DNA of 61,307 bases from the NCBI GenBank assembly GCA_016936555.1, contig JAFGXR010000107.1:1-61307 (forward strand). Direction: 5' to 3'. The number at the start of each line of letters is the position of its first letter. Positions within the stretch are counted from its first letter, which is position 1. Origin of the DNA: Spirochaetales bacterium (GTDB taxonomy: Bacteria; Spirochaetota; Spirochaetia; DSM-2461). Below are positions 12,489-61,307 of this stretch, in pieces. The notes beneath the pieces were generated by a model. The model worked only from the letters and a program-made list of their open reading frames with translations, was not told the origin of the DNA and ran no database searches. The position numbers and the translations under genes are program-made.

Positions 12489-12533
12489 CAGCAGATCTTA
12501 GCGCAGAACTGATAAGTGTGCTACTATCTTTGT

Positions 12534-15395
12534 ATGGAAATAATCAGCCTCATAGCCGTCGCAGTTCTCATTTTTACCCTTATCGGACAGAACCGGAAAA
12601 TCTCTGAAATCCGGAGCGAACAGGATTATCTGAAACAGCGCTTACGAGATCTTGCCGACTCTCTTGAAAGTCAGAATCAGAAAAATGATTTTTTCTCGGC
12701 TATGGGAAAGGATGATACCGAAGTCCATTCCGAACCCGATGAATATCCCTCGGACCGGGATACTTCAAACAGGGAGGAAGAGGATGTCCCGGAATCACCT
12801 GCACAGGCTCCTGTTGCCGAACCTTCCGGGGTAAAGCGGCTGGCCGATCAGCTCCTGAAAAACTGGATCGGAATCCTGGGCACGGTCATTCTCGTTCTGG
12901 GCTTCGGCTTTCTGGGAACCTATGTGGCATTTACTCTTACCGAATTCGGGCGGTTCCTCCTGTTCATCGGAGCTGTCGCTCTCATAGCCGGGGGCTCCTG
13001 GCTGCTGGAGAAGCGGTTCAGGCTTATGAACCTGGCGCTCTGGCTCCGCTCCGCTTCGGGGGCCATTTTGCTTTTCGCCTGTATCGGGTCCTCGGGAATT
13101 CCCGGCTTCAAATGGATCGACAATCCGATTGCCGGACTGATCCTGCTCATCCTGGGCGTTGCCGCCAACATCGCCATGGGACATTTATCGGGCCGGCAGA
13201 TAATCGCTTCGGTCCATGTCTTTCTGAGTCTTCTGGCCATTTCCATGGCTCCGCCGGCGCTCCTTCCCTTTCTCGTCGCGCTGGCTGTGGTGCTTTACGG
13301 CTTATATCTGACCTACCGGAAAAAATGGGATGTCCATTTTCTCCTTATAATCAGTCTCTTTTTTCTCTATCATCTTATCTGGCATTTCCGGTTCGGAGGG
13401 GCAGGGCAGTCCGGGCTTTCGCTGAATGACGAAGCGGTGGCCCTGTTTTCTGTCACCCTGGTTTTCCTCTTCAGCCTTCTGGGCCATTACCGGCATGTTT
13501 ACAGCCAGAAAAAATTCGAGACTGTTCCCTTTCTGACCCATTTCCTCAACTGGGTCTTCTTCGGCAACGGCCTGTATCTCTACCGGAATCTGATCCCACT
13601 GAAATTCCTTCTTCTGGGAGCCGGCGCCGTCATGGCTTACCTGATTGCGAGGAGAGCCAAAACTCTGAAGATCCGATGGCTCTTCGTTACCGATGCCCTG
13701 GCTTCGAACCTGCTCATGATCCTCTCGCTTGCGGCTCTCTATCCCTACGGAGTGAGCTGGTTTTATATCAGCCTGATCATTTTCGCCGAAACGGTTCTGT
13801 TTCTGATTATAGCCGTTCTGGAGAAAGAGAGCCTGCTGACCCGGATCTCCTATTTCCTGGCTCTGGCGGCCGGGACGGCAACGGTTCTCTTCGCTTACGC
13901 TCTCGCCTTCGAGAGTTCCCCGCAGCCCGTCGCCGCAGGGGCTTTGAGCGCCGCGCTTCTCGGGGCGACAGCTTTATACGCGCTTTTCAGCCGGAAAAAC
14001 ACTCACTTTTCCAAGGTAGATAAAAGGATGTCCGGATCCGTCGCGGTTTTTATGCCCGTCCAGGTTCCCGCCGTCTATGCTCTTGCGGGCGATTGGACCT
14101 ACTCCTTTTTATCGGTTCTGCTTCTGATTCCTCTTCTGTGGGTCAAGGACAGAAACCGGAATCCCTCTCTGGCGATCGCCGTCAAAATCATCGCTCCCGT
14201 TCTGGTCCTTTTTACGCTTATCTCTTCAGAAAACTTTTACAGCTCAATCCCTGCGCAGATGCTTTATTTTATTCCCATGGCCGCCGTCCTCACAGTCCTG
14301 GCCTATTATTCCCGGATCATCATCCCCTGGAATCCCGGCGGAATGAAATCGGCTGCTCTGCCGGCGGACCGGGATGAATCCCCGCGGAGCAGCGCCTTCG
14401 CTTTGTTTCTGCTGAACATCTTTCTCATAGCCCAGAGCCTCCTCTTCTTTCAGGACAAGTCAGATTATGTGTTCGGAATGGTTCTTTTCGTTCTATCGAT
14501 TTTCAATCTCGAAACGGGAAAAGCCTTTCCGGTTATCGGGACGCCCCAGAAACGCATCGCCTTTTTTGAGTTTATTCTTTTTCTGATTGTTCATTTCACG
14601 GTAAACCGCGAACTGAAAGGATACCTTCTGCTCGATTTGCAGGCTGTGGCATTGGCCGTCTACTGGGTTCTCCGGAGCGCCGGGGATCTCTCCCGGGAGA
14701 ATGTGTTCTTCCGGTTTGTTTTCCGGCATATTCTGGAACTGCTCTATATCGTAGCCATAGCTCTAACCGCTCTGGAAATTGAGACCCGGTGGCACCCGGT
14801 CATCTGGATCGGACTGGCCGTTCTGTCGCTTTTCTTCTCCTGGTCCCGCCGGACCGATCTCAGCCGTATCAGACTCTATTCGGTTTTTCTCTCCTGGGCC
14901 GCGGCGTTTCAGCTCTGCTTCTTCCTCGGGTTCGAGCGCAGCGGCTGGCTGACCGGGGCGATCGTCATCGCCCTGAATACGGTTTACCTGATCCTCTTCC
15001 GATACAAAGCCCGGCTCGATGAGTTCGCCGGAGAGGGCAGCTACAGGCTTCTCTCTTCTCTGGCCCGGACCATTCATAAAAAACCGGATCTCTGGCTCTT
15101 TTATCCCTTTTTCGCGGCGGTAGCTCTCTACATCTTCTTCCGGTTCAACAGGAACATCATCACCCTCATGTTTGTCTTCGAAAGCCTTCTCATCTTCCTG
15201 CTGAGCCTGAAACTCCGGGAAAACACCTTCCGATTTATCGCCATGGCGGGCATCGCCGGATCGCTGATCAGGCTCGTGTTCTTCGATCTGACCAATTCGG
15301 GAACGGTCCTGCGGGCTCTGGTTTTTATCGGCATGGGCGTGGTTATGGTGATTATGAATGTCCTTTACAGTCATGTGCGGGCAAAAGGGGCGTGA
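12534..15395 (+). CDS. Large DUF2339-like polytopic membrane protein
   Basis: About 953 residues. A short N-terminal hydrophobic segment is followed by a heptad-like stretch (residues 20-50), an acidic linker, and then some two dozen hydrophobic segments from about residue 110 to the end. The region NWIGILGTVILVLGFGFLGTYV resembles DUF2339 (PF10101) proteins, whose function is not known. The start at 12534 (MEIISLIAVAV) has no ribosome site, but an extended -10 (TGC-TACTAT, 12522-12527) ends 6 nt before it, as for a leaderless gene. Its 3' end overlaps the convergent gene by 44 bp. Family assignment rests on the N-terminal third. Confidence 0.7.
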   Translation: MEIISLIAVAVLIFTLIGQNRKISEIRSEQDYLKQRLRDLADSLESQNQKNDFFSAMGKDDTEVHSEPDEYPSDRDTSNREEEDVPESPAQAPVAEPSGVKRLADQLLKNWIGILGTVILVLGFGFLGTYVAFTLTEFGRFLLFIGAVALIAGGSWLLEKRFRLMNLALWLRSASGAILLFACIGSSGIPGFKWIDNPIAGLILLILGVAANIAMGHLSGRQIIASVHVFLSLLAISMAPPALLPFLVALAVVLYGLYLTYRKKWDVHFLLIISLFFLYHLIWHFRFGGAGQSGLSLNDEAVALFSVTLVFLFSLLGHYRHVYSQKKFETVPFLTHFLNWVFFGNGLYLYRNLIPLKFLLLGAGAVMAYLIARRAKTLKIRWLFVTDALASNLLMILSLAALYPYGVSWFYISLIIFAETVLFLIIAVLEKESLLTRISYFLALAAGTATVLFAYALAFESSPQPVAAGALSAALLGATALYALFSRKNTHFSKVDKRMSGSVAVFMPVQVPAVYALAGDWTYSFLSVLLLIPLLWVKDRNRNPSLAIAVKIIAPVLVLFTLISSENFYSSIPAQMLYFIPMAAVLTVLAYYSRIIIPWNPGGMKSAALPADRDESPRSSAFALFLLNIFLIAQSLLFFQDKSDYVFGMVLFVLSIFNLETGKAFPVIGTPQKRIAFFEFILFLIVHFTVNRELKGYLLLDLQAVALAVYWVLRSAGDLSRENVFFRFVFRHILELLYIVAIALTALEIETRWHPVIWIGLAVLSLFFSWSRRTDLSRIRLYSVFLSWAAAFQLCFFLGFERSGWLTGAIVIALNTVYLILFRYKARLDEFAGEGSYRLLSSLARTIHKKPDLWLFYPFFAAVALYIFFRFNRNIITLMFVFESLLIFLLSLKLRENTFRFIAMAGIAGSLIRLVFFDLTNSGTVLRALVFIGMGVVMVIMNVLYSHVRAKGA

Positions 15396-52332: not shown

Positions 52333-52587
52333 TTACTTTCCGCGCCGGACGGGCAGGGTAATTGTGAACTCGCAGCCTTGGTCCTCCAGATTCCGGTAGG
52401 AAATGTCACCGTTGTATTTGTTTATTATACCGTAACTCATGGTCAGACCCAATCCCATATTCTTCGTTCCCTTTTTATTGGAAGAAAAGGGCAGAAGGAT
52501 GTCCTTCAGCCTGAAAGAAGGGGCCATTTCTCTGCTGAGAATACTTTCGTTAAGGGTCTTGGGAGCTGGTGCCGAATTTATAAACAT
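52333..52587 (-). pseudogene. Histidine-kinase C-terminal remnant
   Basis: About 84 codons end in a clear HATPase tail: LPFSSNKKGTKNMGLGLTMS (G2 box GLGL) and GDISYRNLEDQGCEFTITLP. The phosphoacceptor region, N-box and first G-box are missing, and the upstream side is occupied by the divergent gene at 52586. It is a leftover of a deleted sensor kinase. Confidence 0.75.
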
Positions 52588-53185
52588 GATACAGAATGCC
52601 CTCTATTCGATTAAAAGTTTCTTCTACCAGTTCTCAAGATCCGAAATGGTACTGGTTATAACGGCGGCGGCCGCTGTTCTCATCGGGCTTGTCGCGCTCT
52701 TTACAGCCCTGGGGCTTTTCAGAAAATACAGAAAAGCATCTGATATCAGGCGCATGCTGATCATTCTTCAATCACTGGATCTGCTCTATTACAGTCTTGA
52801 TAAGCACATCCATTCCTGGAAAAATGCCAAAAGCGACGGACAGAGCACCGAAGCCCAGAAATTCTGGCGGTATACCGATCTCACGGAGCTCGTCACCCGT
52901 CTTCAGGAATTGAAGGTCCTGTCAAAGATCCATATGAAAAAGACTGTCCATCTTGAGATCGAGGCCCTTCTCGAATTTCTGGGAGATCTGATCCTCATTT
53001 CCTACAGAGGTGAGGACCGATCGGGTAAGCGCTACAGAGTGACGGATATTCTCTCGACGGATAATTTTGATTTAAAGCTCAATGAGATTATAATGAATGT
53101 AGCGAGAGGAGTGAGTTTCAGGAATAAAAAAGACGCCGCGAAGGAAGCTGTTCAGGCTATCATTCTCAACAGCTATCTCAAATAA
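52586..53185 (+). CDS. Single-pass membrane protein at the head of the polysaccharide locus
   Basis: About 199 residues from MIQNALYSIK at 52586. One membrane segment (about 20-43) is followed by a cytoplasmic helical domain (LLYYSLDKHIHSWKNA, DLTELVTRLQELKVLSKIHM and EIEALLEFLGDLILISYRG). No domain is recognised. An in-frame ATG at 52439 would add residues that are antisense to the kinase remnant and is not preferred. It has no ribosome site. The GH16 gene starts 21 bp after its stop, so they are probably co-transcribed. Confidence 0.6.
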   Translation: MIQNALYSIKSFFYQFSRSEMVLVITAAAAVLIGLVALFTALGLFRKYRKASDIRRMLIILQSLDLLYYSLDKHIHSWKNAKSDGQSTEAQKFWRYTDLTELVTRLQELKVLSKIHMKKTVHLEIEALLEFLGDLILISYRGEDRSGKRYRVTDILSTDNFDLKLNEIIMNVARGVSFRNKKDAAKEAVQAIILNSYLK

Positions 53186-53206
53186 GCTCCTCTCTCCGGA
53201 GGAGCC

Positions 53207-53911
53207 TTGTCCCGTTCGTTTATATCGTTTTTTATGTTTTCGACACTCTTTTTCTCTTTTCTCTTCAGCGAGACAGTAGATCAGCTCGACTGGTCCGGAT
53301 ACTCCTGGATCATCAGGAACAACAGAGGGAAAGCCGGTCCGGGACCGAATTATTTCAGTTATCAATCCATTGCCGAAAATGGAGACGGTTCCCTTTCCAT
53401 GGATATATACCCGAGCCGTAACCGGTGGTACTGCGGCGAAATTTATACCGATGATTTATTCACCTATGGTAAATTCAATTTATCTCTGGAACTGTCAAGC
53501 CCTCTGGACAGCCAGGCTGTTTTCGGTTTTTTCCTTTACAATAATGAAGAACCTCCCCATTTTAATGAAATCGACTATGAGATGTCCCGCTGGGCTGTTC
53601 CCGACGGACCGGAAAGTCATTTTACCGTTCAGCCTTATACGAAAGAGGGAAACAGCAGATCCTTTTCATTGGGAAACGTCGAAGGACGGTGGCGAATCGT
53701 TCTCGATTGGAGGCCGGACCGGATTGAGGGTGCAATCGGACCGGCAGGAGAAGGACCGGTTAAAGAGTTCACCTACGGGGGATCTGATATCCCCACCGAT
53801 ACGGAGAGCCGGGTTCATATCAATTTCTGGCTTTTCCGCGGAGACCCCCCAAAGGAAGATGGAATCCTGTCGGTCAGGATCAGCGATTTTACCTACGAAC
53901 CCTACCAGTAA
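53207..53911 (+). CDS. Secreted GH16-like glycoside hydrolase
   Basis: 234 residues with a signal peptide (about 1-21). The fold is the GH16 beta-jelly roll, and the catalytic E-x-D-x-E motif is intact at E121, D123 and E125 (FNEIDYEMS). GH16 enzymes cut beta-1,3/1,4-glucans, agar or related polymers. Here the enzyme may trim the polymer made by the neighbouring synthase, as a periplasmic glycosidase often accompanies exopolysaccharide machines. A TTG start is used with GGAGGAG four to five bases upstream; ATG 53234 is an alternative. The 3' end overlaps the deacetylase gene by 10 bp. Confidence 0.85.
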   Translation: MSRSFISFFMFSTLFFSFLFSETVDQLDWSGYSWIIRNNRGKAGPGPNYFSYQSIAENGDGSLSMDIYPSRNRWYCGEIYTDDLFTYGKFNLSLELSSPLDSQAVFGFFLYNNEEPPHFNEIDYEMSRWAVPDGPESHFTVQPYTKEGNSRSFSLGNVEGRWRIVLDWRPDRIEGAIGPAGEGPVKEFTYGGSDIPTDTESRVHINFWLFRGDPPKEDGILSVRISDFTYEPYQ

Positions 53912-56304
53912 GTGGCTTTGATTCTCAAAAAGAACCCGTTGACACCCCCCTCATTCCAGTCCTTGTTGTTGTAGAGTCCCGAAAGAGCGTTAAAGCCCGA
54001 CATGGTGTATCCGGCCATATAATCGACACCTTTGAAGTGGAAAATCAGACCGCTTTCAAACCCCGCATTCTCCTGCCAGAGCAAATCGGCCACATTGTAG
54101 AAACTGAAGACGGTGTAAATTTCCAGATTCCGCCAGCTCAGTCCCAGATCCAGTCCCATCTGGTGAAGTGTCGTGCTGTCCCCGGTCATATACCGGAACT
54201 GATAGGCTGCCCCCGGCGAAAGAAAGAACGGTCCTGCCGGCGCTGTCCAGGACACCCCGGCGGAGAGGCGAAGCGAATTGCTGTGGTCCCAGAGCGGATA
54301 GGTTTTGAACGTGCCGCCATCGAGAAATTTGACTCCTGCGCTGAAGTGGAGAGCTGACTTTGTCAGTTCCAGATCGTACTGGAAGGCTGCGGCGATTTTA
54401 AATGCGTCGCCGTTGAGGGCCGCCGCTGTCTCGGCTGTCAGAGCATCGCCCTTGAACCAGAGCGAGCCGAAGAGATTGGGTACACCCGGCGCGTCATTAT
54501 CTGCCGTCTGCTCGTGATAGGTCAGAATCCGGTCATCAACGGCGATATCGTATTTCCCGATGATATCGGGGCTGAAGGCAACCTGAAGGCCCCATAATCC
54601 ATTGAAATCCGCTTTACCCTGTAGCCAGAGGGTCCGCGGTGCCATTTCCTGTCCCAGAGAGGGCTCTATTCCGGCGGAACGGGTCACCTGAAGCCATTTG
54701 TTTAAAGGATCCGGCACATAGTATCCCGCATCTAAGGATAGAAAATCTCCGATCATCTGTTCCATATAGATGTGTTTGAGGGAAAAGACGGAACCGTCGA
54801 TGGTTCCCGCAGTTATGTCGGCGAAATTGACCTCGTGGAACCCGAGTGCTCCGTAAACCTGCGAGCCTTCCCAGAGCGGCGACTGTATGTAGAAATAAAG
54901 GTCTTCCAGCTGGCTGTAGAACTGGAAATCTCCCGCTGCTCCTTCATCATCGGCCGAAGAGGTCTCGGCGCTGTCTTTCACCCTTGTTCCCAGAACCATT
55001 TTCCAGTCCAGCCCGAAGTCTATGTGTATCCCATCGGTTTTCACCGGCATGCCCGCCATATCTGACGGTGCAGCGGGTTTCAATTCCTTCAGGTCCCCCA
55101 GGATGACCGGTTCCGGTATGGTTACATCCATATCTTTCCAGCCCGAAGACAGCTCGGACATGGTTTTCACAGCGATTCCCGACTTGAGAATAAGGTTGCA
55201 GATCTCCCGGAATTCTTCTATAGAGAGCTCCGTTTCGAACTGGGAGTATTCTTCGATTTTATGGAATATGAAGATAACCAACTCTCCGTTCCTATAGGCG
55301 TTCTGCAGCCGTTTCGTAAGAGTTTCTCTATCGAACCCCGGGTAGATATTAACGGTTCTGAGCCTGTAGGGATCTCCCGGCGGTTCGGTTTCGGAATATT
55401 CTACAATGGTCCGGCCGCTGGAAAAAAACAGAGGAACCGTTTCCAGGAGGGCGGGACTGACTTTTCCATTGGGATAGCTGAAGTCCGGTTTTTCTATACC
55501 GTGCTCTTTGAAAAAGGCGGCATGGTCACGGAATATGGCATTCAGTTCCTCAGCGGTTTTGTCCTCGAGCCGCTCCCGGTAATGGGAACCGAGGCTCCAG
55601 CCGAAATCCTTTTCCAGGGAGTTCATCTGTTCCGCCGTCATATAAAAGGGGGTGCCGATCTTCTCCGGTATGACATACGCCGTAGCGGTCAGCCCAAGTT
55701 CTTTCAGAACCGGGGCTGCTCGGGTATATTGGCTTTCCCACCCGTCATCGAAGGTTATGACGGCGGCTCCGTCCCTGTCCTGGGGGCTTGCGAACAGGGG
55801 GCTCATTTCGAGTCGAACCGGACCTGATCCCCTGTCGTTTATCCAGATCTGGAAATATTTCATATCGGTCAGGTCCGGGCTGCCCCAGATTTTTCCCGCC
55901 GAGAGGGGAAGCGACAGATCGATCCAATGCCCCTCCATCAGCTGGGTTCTGTCGTCGCTTATCCTGTAGACAATCCTGTTTTCGAACAGACTGTCCGATG
56001 CGGCGAATATCCAGAACTCATTGAGGTTGTCCAGTCCGCTGACTTTCAGTTCGAGATCGATTCTCCTGCCCTCCAGGGAGAACGGGCCGGTTTCCCGGGT
56101 CGCCAGCTGAACATTGGTTCCTTTCCCTTCCGTTTCGAGAAAGAGAGAGCCGCCCCATTCCCGACCTGACTCGGCCACGCCGAATCGCCCCTCCGTCGAA
56201 TTGAGATAAAGGGATGACAGATCGCCGGAGGACAGGATTATCTGAGCAGAAGCGCTGCTGATAGAGATCAGGAAGATAAAAATCAGGGAATTAAGCCTTT
56301 TCAT
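53902..56304 (-). CDS. Polysaccharide deacetylase fused to an outer-membrane beta-barrel
   Basis: 800 residues with a signal peptide (about 1-20). Residues 25-175 form a beta-sandwich that may bind carbohydrate. A NodB domain (178-395) keeps D186/D187 (TFDDG), H241 (GSH), the FSYPNG motif and H348 (FIFHK). The second metal His, expected four residues after H241, is R245, so metal binding may be altered. Residues about 430-800 are alternating beta strands ending in an aromatic C-terminal residue (FFLRIKATYW), the mark of a BAM-inserted barrel. It probably deacetylates and exports polymer at the outer membrane, combining PgaA- and PgaB-like roles; that is inference. Confidence 0.85.
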   Translation of the reverse strand: MKRLNSLIFIFLISISSASAQIILSSGDLSSLYLNSTEGRFGVAESGREWGGSLFLETEGKGTNVQLATRETGPFSLEGRRIDLELKVSGLDNLNEFWIFAASDSLFENRIVYRISDDRTQLMEGHWIDLSLPLSAGKIWGSPDLTDMKYFQIWINDRGSGPVRLEMSPLFASPQDRDGAAVITFDDGWESQYTRAAPVLKELGLTATAYVIPEKIGTPFYMTAEQMNSLEKDFGWSLGSHYRERLEDKTAEELNAIFRDHAAFFKEHGIEKPDFSYPNGKVSPALLETVPLFFSSGRTIVEYSETEPPGDPYRLRTVNIYPGFDRETLTKRLQNAYRNGELVIFIFHKIEEYSQFETELSIEEFREICNLILKSGIAVKTMSELSSGWKDMDVTIPEPVILGDLKELKPAAPSDMAGMPVKTDGIHIDFGLDWKMVLGTRVKDSAETSSADDEGAAGDFQFYSQLEDLYFYIQSPLWEGSQVYGALGFHEVNFADITAGTIDGSVFSLKHIYMEQMIGDFLSLDAGYYVPDPLNKWLQVTRSAGIEPSLGQEMAPRTLWLQGKADFNGLWGLQVAFSPDIIGKYDIAVDDRILTYHEQTADNDAPGVPNLFGSLWFKGDALTAETAAALNGDAFKIAAAFQYDLELTKSALHFSAGVKFLDGGTFKTYPLWDHSNSLRLSAGVSWTAPAGPFFLSPGAAYQFRYMTGDSTTLHQMGLDLGLSWRNLEIYTVFSFYNVADLLWQENAGFESGLIFHFKGVDYMAGYTMSGFNALSGLYNNKDWNEGGVNGFFLRIKATYW

Positions 56305-56381
56305 GACAAATTAATAATAATACATGGACTGAAAATCTACAAAAATTTGCATATTGCTTTAAAACTAATATGATTTTATAT

Positions 56382-56714
56382 ATGAAAACGATTATGAAAG
56401 AGGGGATCTGTATTATTACACCGGAAACCGGACAACTGGATATTACCAATGCCACGACATTCGGGAGCGAAATATCGAAACTGATCAATGGCGAAAATGA
56501 TTATATCCTGAGTCTCGAGTCCGTAAATTTTATGGATTCATCGGGTCTCGGCAAAATTATTGAATTAATCCGGCTGGTCAAGGAGAAAGAACGGAAAATC
56601 GTATTGTGCAATATCCGGGATGCCGTGAAAGTTCTCTTCACCATGGTGAATCTGTCGCAGATCGTCTCTCTTCATGCTTCCGTTACCGATGCGGAAAACT
56701 TCCTGATCGGATAG
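56382..56714 (+). CDS. STAS-domain (anti-sigma-factor antagonist-like) protein
   Basis: 110 residues, one STAS domain. The switch motif DSSGLG (residues 52-57) carries the phosphorylatable Ser of SpoIIAA-type proteins. The partner kinase or phosphatase is not in the window. Starts at 56370, 56382 and 56394 are all in frame; 56382 best fits the usual N-terminus, whereas TTGCTT-17-TATATA (56354-56382) would favour 56394. It reads into the signalling gene 17 bp downstream, so it probably works in the same regulatory chain. Confidence 0.85.
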   Translation: MKTIMKEGICIITPETGQLDITNATTFGSEISKLINGENDYILSLESVNFMDSSGLGKIIELIRLVKEKERKIVLCNIRDAVKVLFTMVNLSQIVSLHASVTDAENFLIG

Positions 56715-56731
56715 GATAAAGGGGTTGTCTT

Positions 56732-58426
56732 TTGGCGCTGAAGTCGGAAGGTTCGAGGGAAATCTCTCCGTCTTTCTACTGGCTGGGTTCCGGTAGATCT
56801 GACGATTTCCTTCAGATCAATTCATATACTGTCGTCAGAAACGGATTATCTCTCCTTTTGGATCCCGGTCCGGTCCTCCTTTTCGAAGAAATACGAGATG
56901 CTTTCCGCGCAGTTACAACCGATCCTGTTCCCTCCATCATTTTTCTGTCCCATCAGGACCCCGATGTCTGCTCTTCACTGTCCCGCTGGGAAGAAGAGGG
57001 GTTTTGCGGAACTGTTATAGCCCATTGGAAAACAGCCTGGATTCTGCAGGATATTTCAACCCGGTGCACAGTTTTCGGCGCCGGCAGGGATAAAGCCCTC
57101 TCTCCTGAGATCAGTCTTATGGGGCTGGAAATCCTTAATCTTCCCTTTGTCCATTCTCCCGGTGCCATCGCTCTCTGGGATGGTGAAACGAAGACTCTTT
57201 TCTCCGGTGATCTTTTAAGCAGTTTCAGTCAGTCGGAGGAACTGTATTTCGAAACTTCGGATATGGAGGGTCTTCTCGGCTTTCACAGGGCTTATATGCC
57301 TTCGCTTTACTGGCTGAAAAACGGACTGAATGAAATCGCAGAGAAAAAGCCCGGACTCATATGCCCCCATTACGGGACGCTGATCTCCGGAAAGTCCGAA
57401 GAGGTTCTGGCAGCTCTTTCCATGCTGGATCTCGATGATCCCCGACGAATCGCCAGCGAGGATAAGGAGGATATCCTCGGTGAAATCCGGAAACTGAAGA
57501 TGAGCAACTTCGAGCTGAAGAAAAGCATGGTTCTCTCTCTCGATGATAAAATCCTCGATGCGGTAACAGGTCTCTATAACCAGACTTATCTCGATTCGTT
57601 TTTCCCCCTTTTTTACAACGGGAACAAAGAGGGATATTATCTCACTATCCGGCTTGATGATATGAAAGATTTCAACTCTCTGTACGGTTTCAGGGAAGGG
57701 GACGCGGCCATCTCCGTTCTGGCTCAGCTCCTCATAAGCATCAAGGAAGATGGATTCCTTCTGTTCAGAGGGGCCGGACCGATCATTACCATGCTGGTTC
57801 CCGGTAAGACAAAAGATGAAGTCATGGATATCATGGAACATATTCAGAAGGAAGTGAGCCAGTCCGAGGCATTTCTCAAAGAGATGACCTGCAGTATCGC
57901 GGCGGTGTTTCTCGGAGATCTGGCGGAAAGCAGCGACCCGCCGGAAACCGCGTTGAAAAAGGCTCTTCTGATCAGATTGAAATACCTCGATAAGCTCGGA
58001 CCGGACTCCATATGCCTGTCGCCGGAAAAGGACCAGTTGCCTTCGGGCAACCCGCTGATCATGATTTTCGATCCCGACAGGATCAATGGCAGATTTCTCA
58101 AAGATTTTCTGGAGCGGAGAGATTATGATGTCATTGTGAAAACCGACGGCACCAGAGCCTTGCACAGCATCGATATGAACAGGCCGTCGCTTATTATCTC
58201 GGAAATCCACATTTCACCGCTCGATGCTTTCCGGTTCAGGTCCAGGCTTCTTGAATCCGCCGATCTGAAAGATATTCCTTTTATACTCATGTCCCACATT
58301 AAATCGGATCCCTTTGTTACCCGGGCTTTCCAGCTGAAAATCTATCACTTTCTGAAAAAGCCCGTCTCCCTGGCCGAACTGGAGGGGCTTGTCGGATATC
58401 TGATAAAGGATCAGGATGAATATTAG
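56732..58426 (+). CDS. ODP-like diiron domain fused to a dead GGDEF and pseudo-receiver
   Basis: 564 residues in three parts. Residues 10-235 are a metallo-beta-lactamase fold of the oxygen-binding diiron type with all six ligands of flavodiiron-like centres: H74, D76, D78 (SHQDPDV), H141, D160 and H213. Residues 270-435 are a GGDEF domain whose active site reads RGAGP (346-350), so it cannot make cyclic-di-GMP. Residues 440-560 are a receiver-like domain with D447/D449 and K543 but E491 in place of the phosphoacceptor Asp. It is predicted to be an oxygen or redox sensor that signals by protein contact. A TTG start is preceded by AAAGGGG; the 3' end overlaps the synthase gene by 11 bp. Confidence 0.87.
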   Translation: MALKSEGSREISPSFYWLGSGRSDDFLQINSYTVVRNGLSLLLDPGPVLLFEEIRDAFRAVTTDPVPSIIFLSHQDPDVCSSLSRWEEEGFCGTVIAHWKTAWILQDISTRCTVFGAGRDKALSPEISLMGLEILNLPFVHSPGAIALWDGETKTLFSGDLLSSFSQSEELYFETSDMEGLLGFHRAYMPSLYWLKNGLNEIAEKKPGLICPHYGTLISGKSEEVLAALSMLDLDDPRRIASEDKEDILGEIRKLKMSNFELKKSMVLSLDDKILDAVTGLYNQTYLDSFFPLFYNGNKEGYYLTIRLDDMKDFNSLYGFREGDAAISVLAQLLISIKEDGFLLFRGAGPIITMLVPGKTKDEVMDIMEHIQKEVSQSEAFLKEMTCSIAAVFLGDLAESSDPPETALKKALLIRLKYLDKLGPDSICLSPEKDQLPSGNPLIMIFDPDRINGRFLKDFLERRDYDVIVKTDGTRALHSIDMNRPSLIISEIHISPLDAFRFRSRLLESADLKDIPFILMSHIKSDPFVTRAFQLKIYHFLKKPVSLAELEGLVGYLIKDQDEY

Positions 58427-61295
58427 CTGGCAGTTTCTCCTTCTCTTCTTTTCCATTCTCCTGGGGCTGAATCTCATAATACTTCTCTGGACTCTCTATG
58501 TGAAACGGCGCTCCCGACGGCTCTATCTCAACGGGGAGAAATACCGCTCCTGTATTTCCGATCTGATAAACGGCGATGACTTTTCATTCGGCAGGCTGAA
58601 AATCTCCGAGAGGGTGCACTTCCTCACGGCCCTTCAGAGATGGACGAAGAGCTTTGAATTGCCCGACCAGATATACGGTTTGCTGAGTCCCCTTATCAAA
58701 GACTGGAATCTCTCTGGAATTGTAAGAAAAAAATTGAAGAGCCGACGCATCCATGTCCGCTCGGAAGGGCTTCTCCTGGTGGAGCTTCTTCCCCAGGATG
58801 AACAGCTCTTTCTTCTGGAGAAGGCTCTCGAGCGGGAAACATCCCAGCTTCTTGAGCTGAAAATGGTGGAGATTCTCTGTTCGCTCAATCTCCAGCACTC
58901 CATTTCCCTTATCATCGATGTGCTGAAAAGGACTCCCGCTCATTTCAGGAACAAGATCATATGTTTTCTTTCGGCTTACAGCCTTCAATTGGGGGCCTGG
59001 GCTGCCCGGCACAAGGACAGTCCCGACCCCCTTATCAGACGTCTTCTCATTATCGCGGCGGAAGAGGGGCAAGATGAATGGTTTCTGCCTTTTCTGACCG
59101 GGCAAATCCGGGCCGATGATTTCGAATTGAGATCGGCGGCGGCGGCCATTCTGCTCCGGAAATTCAGCAGATCCTTCGACCTGGAACACCTCTTTACGTC
59201 CCCCTATGAAGATATGAGAAAAAAAGGGGTGGAATTTCTGATCGAACAGGATCCCGATGCCGGTCCCGAAGCTTATCTGTTTCTGCTGGAACGGGAGGAT
59301 CTTCGTTCCTTTGCAGTCGATGCGCTGTCCCGCAAAGTCAGCAGGTCCCCGAGGCTGCTCAAAGAATCCTTTGAACTCTTTAAACAAAGCCGAGCCTCCG
59401 AAGACAAGCTTATCTGGGCGGAAGTTCTCAGCAGCCGGGTCTCCTACTTCGCTTTCAGAGCCGAACAGGAGGATTTCGAAGACGTGGCGGATCTTCTCTC
59501 CCGTATCATCGAGCTGGGACACTATTCCCAGATCATCAACTTTCTCAACCAGAACAGAAATCAGATGTTGGAAGAGACTCTGAAGAGGATTCTCCTTCCC
59601 CTCATCGACAGCCATGCCCTCTTCAGGAAACAGTGCCGGCTGTACCTCAATGAGAAGATGCAGAAGCGCTGGAAGATCCCCGATTTCGAGAAAGAGGTGA
59701 GCGAACCGAAATTCCTGCTGAAAAGGGGCGATAAAGTTCTTATGGGCATTATGATGCTACTTGTTATCTTTCTGCCTATCGGGATTTTTCTGGTCACCAG
59801 AACCGCTCCGCTCCGCTTTTACACCTCCGGTGAACTCTTCGTGTCCTTTGTTTTTTTCTTCCATTATGTTTTTGCCTTCTACAACATAGCGGTTAACAGC
59901 ATCTATTTTATACTGATGCTTCTCTCCTGGTATGTCATTAACAGGCAGCAGACCTGCTGGGAACTGGCGGACAGGAAATTTCTCTTTACACCGGGACTGC
60001 TCCCCTCCATTTCCATCCTGGCGCCGGCCTTCAATGAAGAGACGACAATCATACAGAACGTCTATTCTCTGATGGCCCTCGATTATGCCGACTTCGAGGT
60101 CATTGTAATCGATGACGGTTCTTCCGATAAAACTTCCCAGGTTCTGATCAATCAGTTCAATATGGAAATTTCCGAATGGCCATCGGTCGGTGCCATTGCC
60201 TGCGCTCCCGTACAGGGGGTCTACAGAAGCCGCGAATATCCCGGTCTTCTTCTGATCAGAAAACTGAACGGAGGGAAGGCCGATGCCCTGAACGCCGGTA
60301 TCAATTATGCTTCGGGAGAGTATATCTGCAGCATCGATGCGGACAGTCTTCTGGAACCGGATGCCCTTCAGAAAATTATGATCCGCACGCTGATTCACAG
60401 GAACGAAACCGTAGCCGTGGGGGGGAATGTCCTGCCGTCCAACGGGTCCATCGTCAGCGAAGGCATGATCCGGGAAATACACCTGCCTGAAAATACCTAC
60501 GCCCGTTACCAGACCGTGGAATATCTCCGATCCTTTATTTCAAACAGGCTGGGATGGTCGAAAATCAACAGTCTTCTGGTCATCTCAGGCGCTTTCGGCG
60601 TTTTCAAGCGGGACAGGATCGTGGCCATGGGCGGCTATCTGACCGGAAAGGGTAAACTCCGGAAGGATACGGTCGGTGAGGATATGGAGGCGGTTGTTCA
60701 TCTCTACGAATACATGAAGGACAGTAAGCGCAGATTCCATGTTGATTATGCCTATAACGCCAACTGCTGGACCGAGGTTCCCGAGACTCTCGAAAGCCTG
60801 GTCCGCCAGCGTGACCGGTGGCACCGCGGGCTCGTCGAAGTCATCCTTTACCATAAGAACATGCTCTTCAACCGGAAATACGGCGCGGTCGGGCTCATCG
60901 CTTTTCCCTATTTCGTTCTTTTCGAGCTTCTGGGTCCGTTCCTCGAATCCATGGGATATCTGCTGCTGATCATTCCGTTTTTTCTGGGGCTGCTGAACAG
61001 CAGGATCATTCTCTTTATGTTTTCCATTGCGGTCGTGTTGGGCATTCTCATTTCGACATTGTCCCTGTTTCTGGCAGAAAAAGGTGTCCTTTATTTCAAA
61101 GGCAGGGATTTCCGATATGTCGTACTGACGGCTTTCCTGGAGAATTTCGGGTGGCGCCAGTTTATCAGCTTTCTCAGGCCCGTCAGTTATTTCATGTATA
61201 CCTTCCGCCGGAAGGACAAGGGGTGGCAGAAATTCCAGAGAAAAGGTTTCCTTCAGGCTCATGAGAAGGAGGTTCACCATGGATCGCCGTCATAA
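58416..61295 (+). CDS. HEAT-like/GT2 processive polysaccharide synthase
   Basis: 959 residues. TM1 is about 5-27. Residues 45-430 are alpha-helical repeats resembling HEAT repeats. TMs lie near 441-460 and 473-507. The GT2 domain (528-805) has D566/D567 (DDGSSD), D641-x-D643, the base E755-D756 (GEDME) and Q798-R-D-R-W802, the full set of processive synthases such as PgaC or BcsA. C-terminal TMs lie near 823-885. It should make and translocate a beta-linked polymer across the inner membrane. No PilZ domain is present; the repeats may receive the signal from the preceding protein. It is translationally coupled to that gene. Confidence 0.9.
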   Translation: MNISWQFLLLFFSILLGLNLIILLWTLYVKRRSRRLYLNGEKYRSCISDLINGDDFSFGRLKISERVHFLTALQRWTKSFELPDQIYGLLSPLIKDWNLSGIVRKKLKSRRIHVRSEGLLLVELLPQDEQLFLLEKALERETSQLLELKMVEILCSLNLQHSISLIIDVLKRTPAHFRNKIICFLSAYSLQLGAWAARHKDSPDPLIRRLLIIAAEEGQDEWFLPFLTGQIRADDFELRSAAAAILLRKFSRSFDLEHLFTSPYEDMRKKGVEFLIEQDPDAGPEAYLFLLEREDLRSFAVDALSRKVSRSPRLLKESFELFKQSRASEDKLIWAEVLSSRVSYFAFRAEQEDFEDVADLLSRIIELGHYSQIINFLNQNRNQMLEETLKRILLPLIDSHALFRKQCRLYLNEKMQKRWKIPDFEKEVSEPKFLLKRGDKVLMGIMMLLVIFLPIGIFLVTRTAPLRFYTSGELFVSFVFFFHYVFAFYNIAVNSIYFILMLLSWYVINRQQTCWELADRKFLFTPGLLPSISILAPAFNEETTIIQNVYSLMALDYADFEVIVIDDGSSDKTSQVLINQFNMEISEWPSVGAIACAPVQGVYRSREYPGLLLIRKLNGGKADALNAGINYASGEYICSIDADSLLEPDALQKIMIRTLIHRNETVAVGGNVLPSNGSIVSEGMIREIHLPENTYARYQTVEYLRSFISNRLGWSKINSLLVISGAFGVFKRDRIVAMGGYLTGKGKLRKDTVGEDMEAVVHLYEYMKDSKRRFHVDYAYNANCWTEVPETLESLVRQRDRWHRGLVEVILYHKNMLFNRKYGAVGLIAFPYFVLFELLGPFLESMGYLLLIIPFFLGLLNSRIILFMFSIAVVLGILISTLSLFLAEKGVLYFKGRDFRYVVLTAFLENFGWRQFISFLRPVSYFMYTFRRKDKGWQKFQRKGFLQAHEKEVHHGSPS

Positions 61296-61307
61296 CAGCC
61301 TGATCGG
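61279..61307 (+). CDS. Start of a further gene in the polysaccharide operon (partial)
   Basis: An ATG at 61279, preceded by a strong AAGGAGG, opens MDRRHNSLI and runs off the window. It overlaps the synthase stop by 17 bp. Being the next gene of the operon, it could encode the periplasmic or tetratricopeptide partner that the system otherwise lacks. Confidence 0.6.

Follow-up and report, generated by a model that had tools for sequence, protein, structure and literature searches.

What kind of polymer system is encoded when a processive glycosyltransferase of family GT2 lies directly behind a regulator whose GGDEF domain is dead, and how would such a synthase be controlled? The question was raised by the far end of a 61,307-nucleotide stretch of a Spirochaetales genome (assembly GCA_016936555.1, contig JAFGXR010000107.1), which was analysed as a whole, is hereafter called the window, and is a complete contig (C26) of this genome (G000). 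Genes for a GH16 enzyme, a CE4 protein, a STAS protein, an ODP-GGDEF-receiver protein and a processive GT2 with HEAT repeats span positions 53207–61295, and one more gene starts at 61279. The first five had been named in an initial annotation, and all were found again in the reading frames and Pfam matches. The explanation that we favour, with a probability of roughly 0.6 for the whole of it, is an exopolysaccharide (EPS) system with a three-gene core, in which the synthase would be gated by a signalling-dead partner protein and the product would be a glucan.

The core consists of the gene for the partner, an ODP–pseudo-GGDEF–pseudo-receiver protein (56732–58426, forward strand), the GT2 gene (58416–61295, forward strand; 959 amino acids, aa) and the beginning of a glycosidase gene (61279–61307, forward strand), of which 29 bases precede the end of the contig. 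The partner and GT2 genes overlap, as had been annotated, by 11 bp. The conservation of this pair was examined in a set of 98 related genomes together with the genome itself. Full-length relatives of the HEAT-GT2, at 32–45% identity, showed a scattered occurrence in this set, and an ODP-type gene was always directly upstream. Profile searches found the GGDEF-receiver half of the partner in 15 genomes, precisely those that have the HEAT-GT2; this count takes in G019, where the two genes are split over contigs. Outside these 15 genomes, the partner profile matched the ODP domain only, and a weak match in G059 was a GT2 without HEAT repeats. The locus is patchy even at short distance, being absent from the three other genomes of the genus.

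The search was widened to 85,000 species genomes, where the single GT2 sequence of the window found no match but an alignment-based profile yielded more than 580 candidate loci. The best 80 were kept; they were chosen by similarity to the window GT2, and the adjacency figure therefore holds for this family only. Of the 80 loci, 72 have room upstream, and in every one of these the HEAT-GT2 gene comes immediately after an (ODP-)pseudo-GGDEF-pseudo-receiver gene. These 72 loci belong to Spirochaetota, Firmicutes, Chloroflexi, Tenericutes and Fibrobacterota, and the carriers include Acetobacterium, Fusibacter, Heliophilum, Anaerobium, Trichococcus, Flexilinea, Acholeplasma and Fibrobacter in addition to many Spirochaetota. 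The co-occurrence and synteny on which the initial annotation had made its proposal depend are thus present, in every testable relative and well beyond the spirochaetes. The locus is real, conserved and common to many anaerobes. In a quick tree of the GT2 sequences, those of spirochaetes are scattered among Firmicutes and those of Chloroflexi are nested in Clostridia, suggesting that the core may have moved between phyla by transfer. The Rectinema group (L112, L056, L058, L065 and L097) and the Chloroflexi members L085 and L107 are nested in Firmicutes branches of the same tree.

The GT2 of the window has an N-terminal transmembrane helix, HEAT-like repeats at about residues 60–430, a PgaC-like catalytic part and a C-terminal transmembrane region. 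The HEAT-like N-terminus that had been annotated was borne out by a profile match to alphaRep/HEAT structures (1.4e-18). The processive motif set D, DxD, (T/G)ED and QxxRW is complete (D567, D641xD643, GED at 755–756, and QRDRW at 798–802) and invariant in 12 full-length relatives. A Pfam scan of this GT2 found no PilZ domain, which distinguishes it from the Bcs cellulose synthase with its C-terminal PilZ.

In the partner protein of the window, Pfam recognizes an ODP domain (3.3e-34; 118.9 bits, cutoff 27.2), a GGDEF domain (1.4e-11) and a receiver domain (Response_reg, 4.2e-11). The GGDEF motif position reads GAGPI, and GG[DE]EF was found in none of 87 family sequences; the RxxD I-site occurs in one of 88 family members and is missing from the window protein. 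At the phosphorylation site of the receiver, 78 of 87 sequences carry glutamate (Glu491 in the window), six aspartate, two alanine and one glycine, while the receiver lysine is retained in most family members. Hence the earlier statement that the locus combines a dead GGDEF domain with the absence of PilZ holds, and extends to the I-site. The family-wide loss of the GGDEF motif and I-site, together with the glutamate at the phosphosite, indicates that control is probably independent of cyclic di-GMP (c-di-GMP).

The ODP domain may supply an alternative input. It matches the solved oxygen-binding diiron ODP structures of the Treponema denticola type (5.1e-19) and shares their MBL fold; in T. 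denticola the ODP is a stand-alone sensor that serves chemotaxis as an oxygen sensor (PMC7666581), whereas here it is fused to a pseudo-GGDEF and a pseudo-receiver and its ligands are often lost. The six diiron ligands are complete in 43 of the 76 proteins that cover the site, mostly from anaerobes, and degenerate in the other 33. The window protein retains five (H74, D76, D78, H141 and D160) and has Tyr214 at the sixth position (CPHYG for CPxHG). The partners in L092, L102, L111 and L053 have no ODP domain at all. Since ODP sites are often degenerate and some partners are without the domain, the constant element of the regulator, as read from these alignments, is the pseudo-GGDEF plus pseudo-receiver, and the ODP is one input among others. 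Of the annotated oxygen/iron sensor, therefore, the domain is present, but its sensing site is incomplete in the window. The Rectinema group has its own common degenerate ligand set (QESYAY or EDSYAY). The partner of Heliophilum fasciatum (L053:7476-9686), which has GGDEF and receiver domains, carries in frame a DivIVA-like C-terminus; this may reflect a swapped domain or two separate genes taken for a single one.

The initial annotation had gone further and taken the ODP for a sensor of O2/Fe(II) with direct control over synthesis in place of c-di-GMP, and STAS for a co-regulator. This is the most credible of the alternatives and has the clear domain match and the 43 intact sites in its favour, yet the tyrosine in the window, the 33 degenerate sites and the partners without ODP show that it is not the general mechanism, and STAS is found in one clade only. 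We regard it as conceivable, with the odds against it.

The STAS protein of the window (56370–56714, forward strand; 114 aa; Pfam 4.5e-18) keeps the motif with the phosphorylatable serine, which reads DSSGLG here and DS[ST]GLG in relatives. It is confined to the clade of the window, which comprises 19 GT2s (Shimodaira-Hasegawa-like approximate likelihood ratio test 99). In this clade a PAS/SpoIIE/HATPase gene, usually with STAS, lies upstream of the ODP gene. Among the 17 scorable members that have STAS/SpoIIE, 16 carry a degenerate ODP site, compared with 13 of the 53 that lack it. We considered that the gain of STAS/SpoIIE had driven the loss of the ODP site, but rejected it: the association (Fisher p 3.6e-7) comes down to one independent pair on the tree, that is, to the history of one clade. 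What remains looks like a change of input from ODP to STAS/SpoIIE that rests on a single clade.

In the window itself, the slot that in relatives holds the PAS-SpoIIE(PP2C)-HATPase gene (519–729 aa) is empty (56714–56732), and a 17 bp gap separates the STAS from the ODP gene. Because the closest relatives L019, L033 and L042 carry a SpoIIE gene at this position, its loss on the branch of the window appears to be the simplest reading. A separate STAS-SpoIIE pair, with PAS, HATPase_c_2 and five hydrophobic segments, lies on contig C92 of the same genome (L124:6816-9295). The same pair is resident in three congeners without the GT2, which rules out that it is the missing SpoIIE in a new place; it is a possible partner in trans of the orphan STAS. 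STAS control of a polysaccharide locus has a precedent in SypA/SypE of the syp locus of Vibrio fischeri (PMC4517449), where a STAS protein and a PP2C/RsbW-like regulator are likewise encoded with the polysaccharide genes. The present version differs in its order PAS-SpoIIE-HATPase, in its restriction to one spirochaete clade and in the absence of the phosphatase/kinase from the window locus. The annotated role of STAS as a substitute for c-di-GMP was not upheld for the family as a whole, since STAS belongs to this clade only and is paired there with a SpoIIE-type phosphatase/kinase that the window locus has lost.

The third core gene gives the first indication of the product. The initial annotation had mentioned that another gene follows but had overlooked its nature, a GH157-like core enzyme. 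Its start, an ATG at 61279 behind AAGGAGG, lies within the GT2 gene with a 17 bp overlap. Another contig of this genome, C123, ends in a homologous gene body that is 50% identical to the copy in L033 (G000:C123:17765-20533, reverse strand); we infer that C26 and C123 join, although their ends have no identical stretch of at least 12 bases in common. In L019, L033 and many other loci, a gene of about 1000 aa follows the GT2 (43 of 68 loci with room downstream; directly downstream in 30). No Pfam match goes beyond a weak one to GH72. An AlphaFold model of the L033 protein (24 rows; predicted local distance difference test, pLDDT, 84) contains a transmembrane helix (residues 20–41), an alpha/beta region, a (beta/alpha)8 barrel and a beta-sandwich. 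The fold comparison placed a Labilibaculum GH157 enzyme solved with laminari-oligosaccharides first (Z 32.5, 2.4 Å over 311 residues, 19% identity), with a plateau of GH2 enzymes near Z 26; Foldseek matches include the GH72 glucanosyltransferases Gas2 and Gel4. E472 and E629 follow strands beta4 and beta7, the positions expected in clan GH-A, and do not vary in any of the 24 sequences. The best match for this product is thus a membrane-anchored clan GH-A glycosidase/transglycosylase (GH157/GH72-like), its predicted fold being nearest to GH157 endo-beta-1,3-glucanases. A characterised GH157 cleaves linear beta-1,3-glucan (PMC10229575).

The GH16 gene (53207–53911, forward strand; 234 aa), which encodes a secreted beta-glucanase-like protein, is a recurrent accessory of the core. 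The window sequence alone scores below the Pfam cutoff (15.5 bits, cutoff 22), but the catalytic motif ExDxE (E121, D123 and E125) is intact and invariant in 16 relatives, and the nearest solved relatives of the family profile are 1,3-1,4-beta-glucanases (lichenases; 5.6e-11). In Acetobacterium, clear and separate GH16 genes precede the core. Because the third gene is GH157-like and GH16 is nearest to lichenases, a beta-1,3-containing glucan is a more probable product than poly-N-acetylglucosamine (PNAG), as far as profiles and the model can tell.

The other accessory, the CE4 protein (53902–56304, reverse strand; 800 aa; Pfam CE4 1.3e-9), has a Sec signal peptide, a beta-sandwich, a deacetylase-like domain (residues 177–290) and a beta-rich C-terminus of about 380 aa. 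Its metal triad D,H,H is incomplete: TFDDG is kept, but HYRER stands where Hx3H is expected, so that the second histidine is replaced and the activity of this CE4 type is doubtful. Short stand-alone spirochaete CE4s have an intact HSLTH. Orthologues of the window protein adjoin the same locus in L019 and L033. In general, diderm members add GH16 and CE4 genes and small barrel candidates. Three kinds of CE4 gene occur: the window type with its fused beta-rich tail, a short stand-alone type and a 614-aa form. CE4 is missing from most loci. For the annotated C-terminal beta-barrel, the Sec signal, an amphipathic-strand excess of 0.11 against 0.049 (sd 0.023) in shuffles and a C-terminal ...LRIKATYW that is kept in one relative are favourable, but an AlphaFold prediction (7 rows) gave pLDDT below 50 in this region, and a profile of the C-terminus did not match the separately encoded barrel candidates of relatives. 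An outer-membrane barrel is plausible. The deacetylase and barrel, to which the initial annotation had given roles in the system, are not core, and the window CE4 type is without the second metal-binding histidine.

On these grounds we propose the following mechanism. The GT2, with its complete processive motifs, would polymerise and extrude the polysaccharide, and the clan GH-A enzyme, given its fold and invariant glutamates, may trim or remodel the emerging chain. The cytosolic partner, which adjoins the GT2 gene in every testable locus, would be the obligate companion of the synthase, docking on its cytosolic HEAT repeats and gating it. With neither GGDEF motif nor I-site, and with glutamate fixed at the receiver phosphosite, the partner would act as a signalling-dead scaffold, with inputs supplied by interchangeable modules: the diiron ODP in most Firmicutes and several spirochaetes, and the STAS/SpoIIE partner switch in the clade of the window. 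In the window, the loss of the local SpoIIE would leave STAS orphaned or served in trans. As product we predict a glucan with beta-1,3 linkages, possibly of mixed linkage, on which the GH16 and GH157-like enzymes would act to release or edit it.

Several points weigh against this explanation. The proposal that the pseudo-receiver docks on the HEAT repeats comes from gene adjacency only, the sequence profile of the third gene family has no PDB match at E 1, so that its GH157 likeness is structural only, and no experimental work on any family member was found in the open-licence literature. Furthermore, the GT2 is closest by sequence to PgaC/IcaA (best NCBIfam match PgaC_IcaA, 118.8 bits; 24% identity to Escherichia coli PgaC over 449 aa, E 5e-29), and the spirochaete loci recruit CE4 deacetylases, which fits an N-acetylated polymer better than a glucan. 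These last observations, with three kinds of CE4 gene adjoining the GT2 in spirochaetes, would suit a Pga/Ica-type system in which a GT2 product of the PNAG type would pass to the CE4-barrel protein for deacetylation and export, with GH16 responsible for its release. The E. coli pgaABCD system indeed shares with the locus the broad kind of GT2, a CE4 domain and, in diderm versions, an outer-membrane element (the barrel here being putative). However, the GT2 score is far under the PgaC/IcaA equivalog cutoff of 422.3, the likeness of the CE4 protein to PgaB is limited to 42 residues, and its beta-rich C-terminus is not a PgaB-type glycoside hydrolase; neither GH153 nor a TPR porin was found at the locus. 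The CE4 and barrel are variable accessories, the window CE4 has lost a metal ligand, the regulator and glycosidases are different, and the conserved glycosidases indicate beta-1,3-glucan. PNAG seems to us a rather unlikely product.

Binding of c-di-GMP away from the I-site, as in PgaC/PgaD or BgsA, is also conceivable. On this view the synthase would remain under c-di-GMP control by way of a non-canonical site, with the pseudo-GGDEF as the receptor. Listeria monocytogenes Pss (pssA–E), the nearest known system, gives this idea its model: in one operon, a PgaC-like GT2 (PssC) stands beside PssE, a degenerate, catalytically dead GGDEF protein that is required for EPS (PMC4125290), and BgsA binds c-di-GMP without PilZ (PMC5567048). 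PssE, however, retains the RxxD I-site and binds c-di-GMP through it (PMC4125290), whereas 87 of the 88 members of the present family have lost this site and the active-site motif likewise; Pss is also without the fused pseudo-receiver, the usual ODP and the HEAT repeats on the GT2. We consider continued c-di-GMP control quite improbable. That unrelated genes lie together by chance at the end of a contig, a reading to which only the patchy presence of the locus would point, is refuted for the core by the 72 adjacent pairs and the common 15-genome distribution, and stays conceivable for GH16 and CE4 in some loci.

Returning to the gated glucan synthase, partial likenesses exist elsewhere. The beta-glucan synthases BgsA of Sinorhizobium meliloti and RiGT2 of Romboutsia ilealis resemble it in being processive GT2s (without PilZ in BgsA) and in the predicted beta-1,3-containing product; compared by description and not by sequence, they differ in that neither HEAT repeats nor a pseudo-receiver partner are reported. 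The clostridial ccsZABHI cellulose synthase is a Gram-positive synthase operon that also combines a GT2 and a glycosidase, but it has PilZ in CcsA, a GH5 enzyme as CcsZ and acetylation genes (PMC7710045), none of which occurs in the window family. No description of the locus was found in the open-licence literature. The conserved EPS-synthase unit, a form of synthase-dependent exopolysaccharide system distinct from Pga, Bcs and Pss, is apparently undescribed, in agreement with the candidate new locus of the initial annotation.

The annotated start of the locus at 52586 has to be moved, since the gene at 52439/52586 (52439–53185) is without any relative near conserved loci and was excluded from the unit. 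Antisense to the start of this reading frame, an 84-aa remnant (52333–52587, reverse strand) with the C-terminal half of a HATPase_c histidine-kinase domain (Pfam 1.2e-7) resembles a kinase gene fragment at the locus edge. Between 52200 and 61307 there are 18 sigma-70-like promoter matches against 7.0 in shuffles (sd 2.7), an excess that AT-rich stretches may alone explain. Elsewhere in the window, a 959-aa open reading frame (12516–15395, forward strand) has no Pfam match at 0.001.

c-di-GMP gates the majority of the synthase-dependent exopolysaccharides described so far; here the constant regulator is without both known c-di-GMP sites and the usual phosphosite. We tentatively suggest, at a little under even odds, that these loci form a cross-phylum class of EPS synthases without c-di-GMP control, in which the fused pseudo-GGDEF and phosphomimetic pseudo-receiver may be a permanent allosteric subunit on the HEAT repeats of the GT2 and the inputs, ODP or STAS/SpoIIE, are swappable, the window standing between the two. 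The unit, which occurs mostly in anaerobes and in no fewer than five phyla, predicts that a processive glycosyltransferase can be gated in another way, and that these anaerobes are likely to make a beta-glucan.

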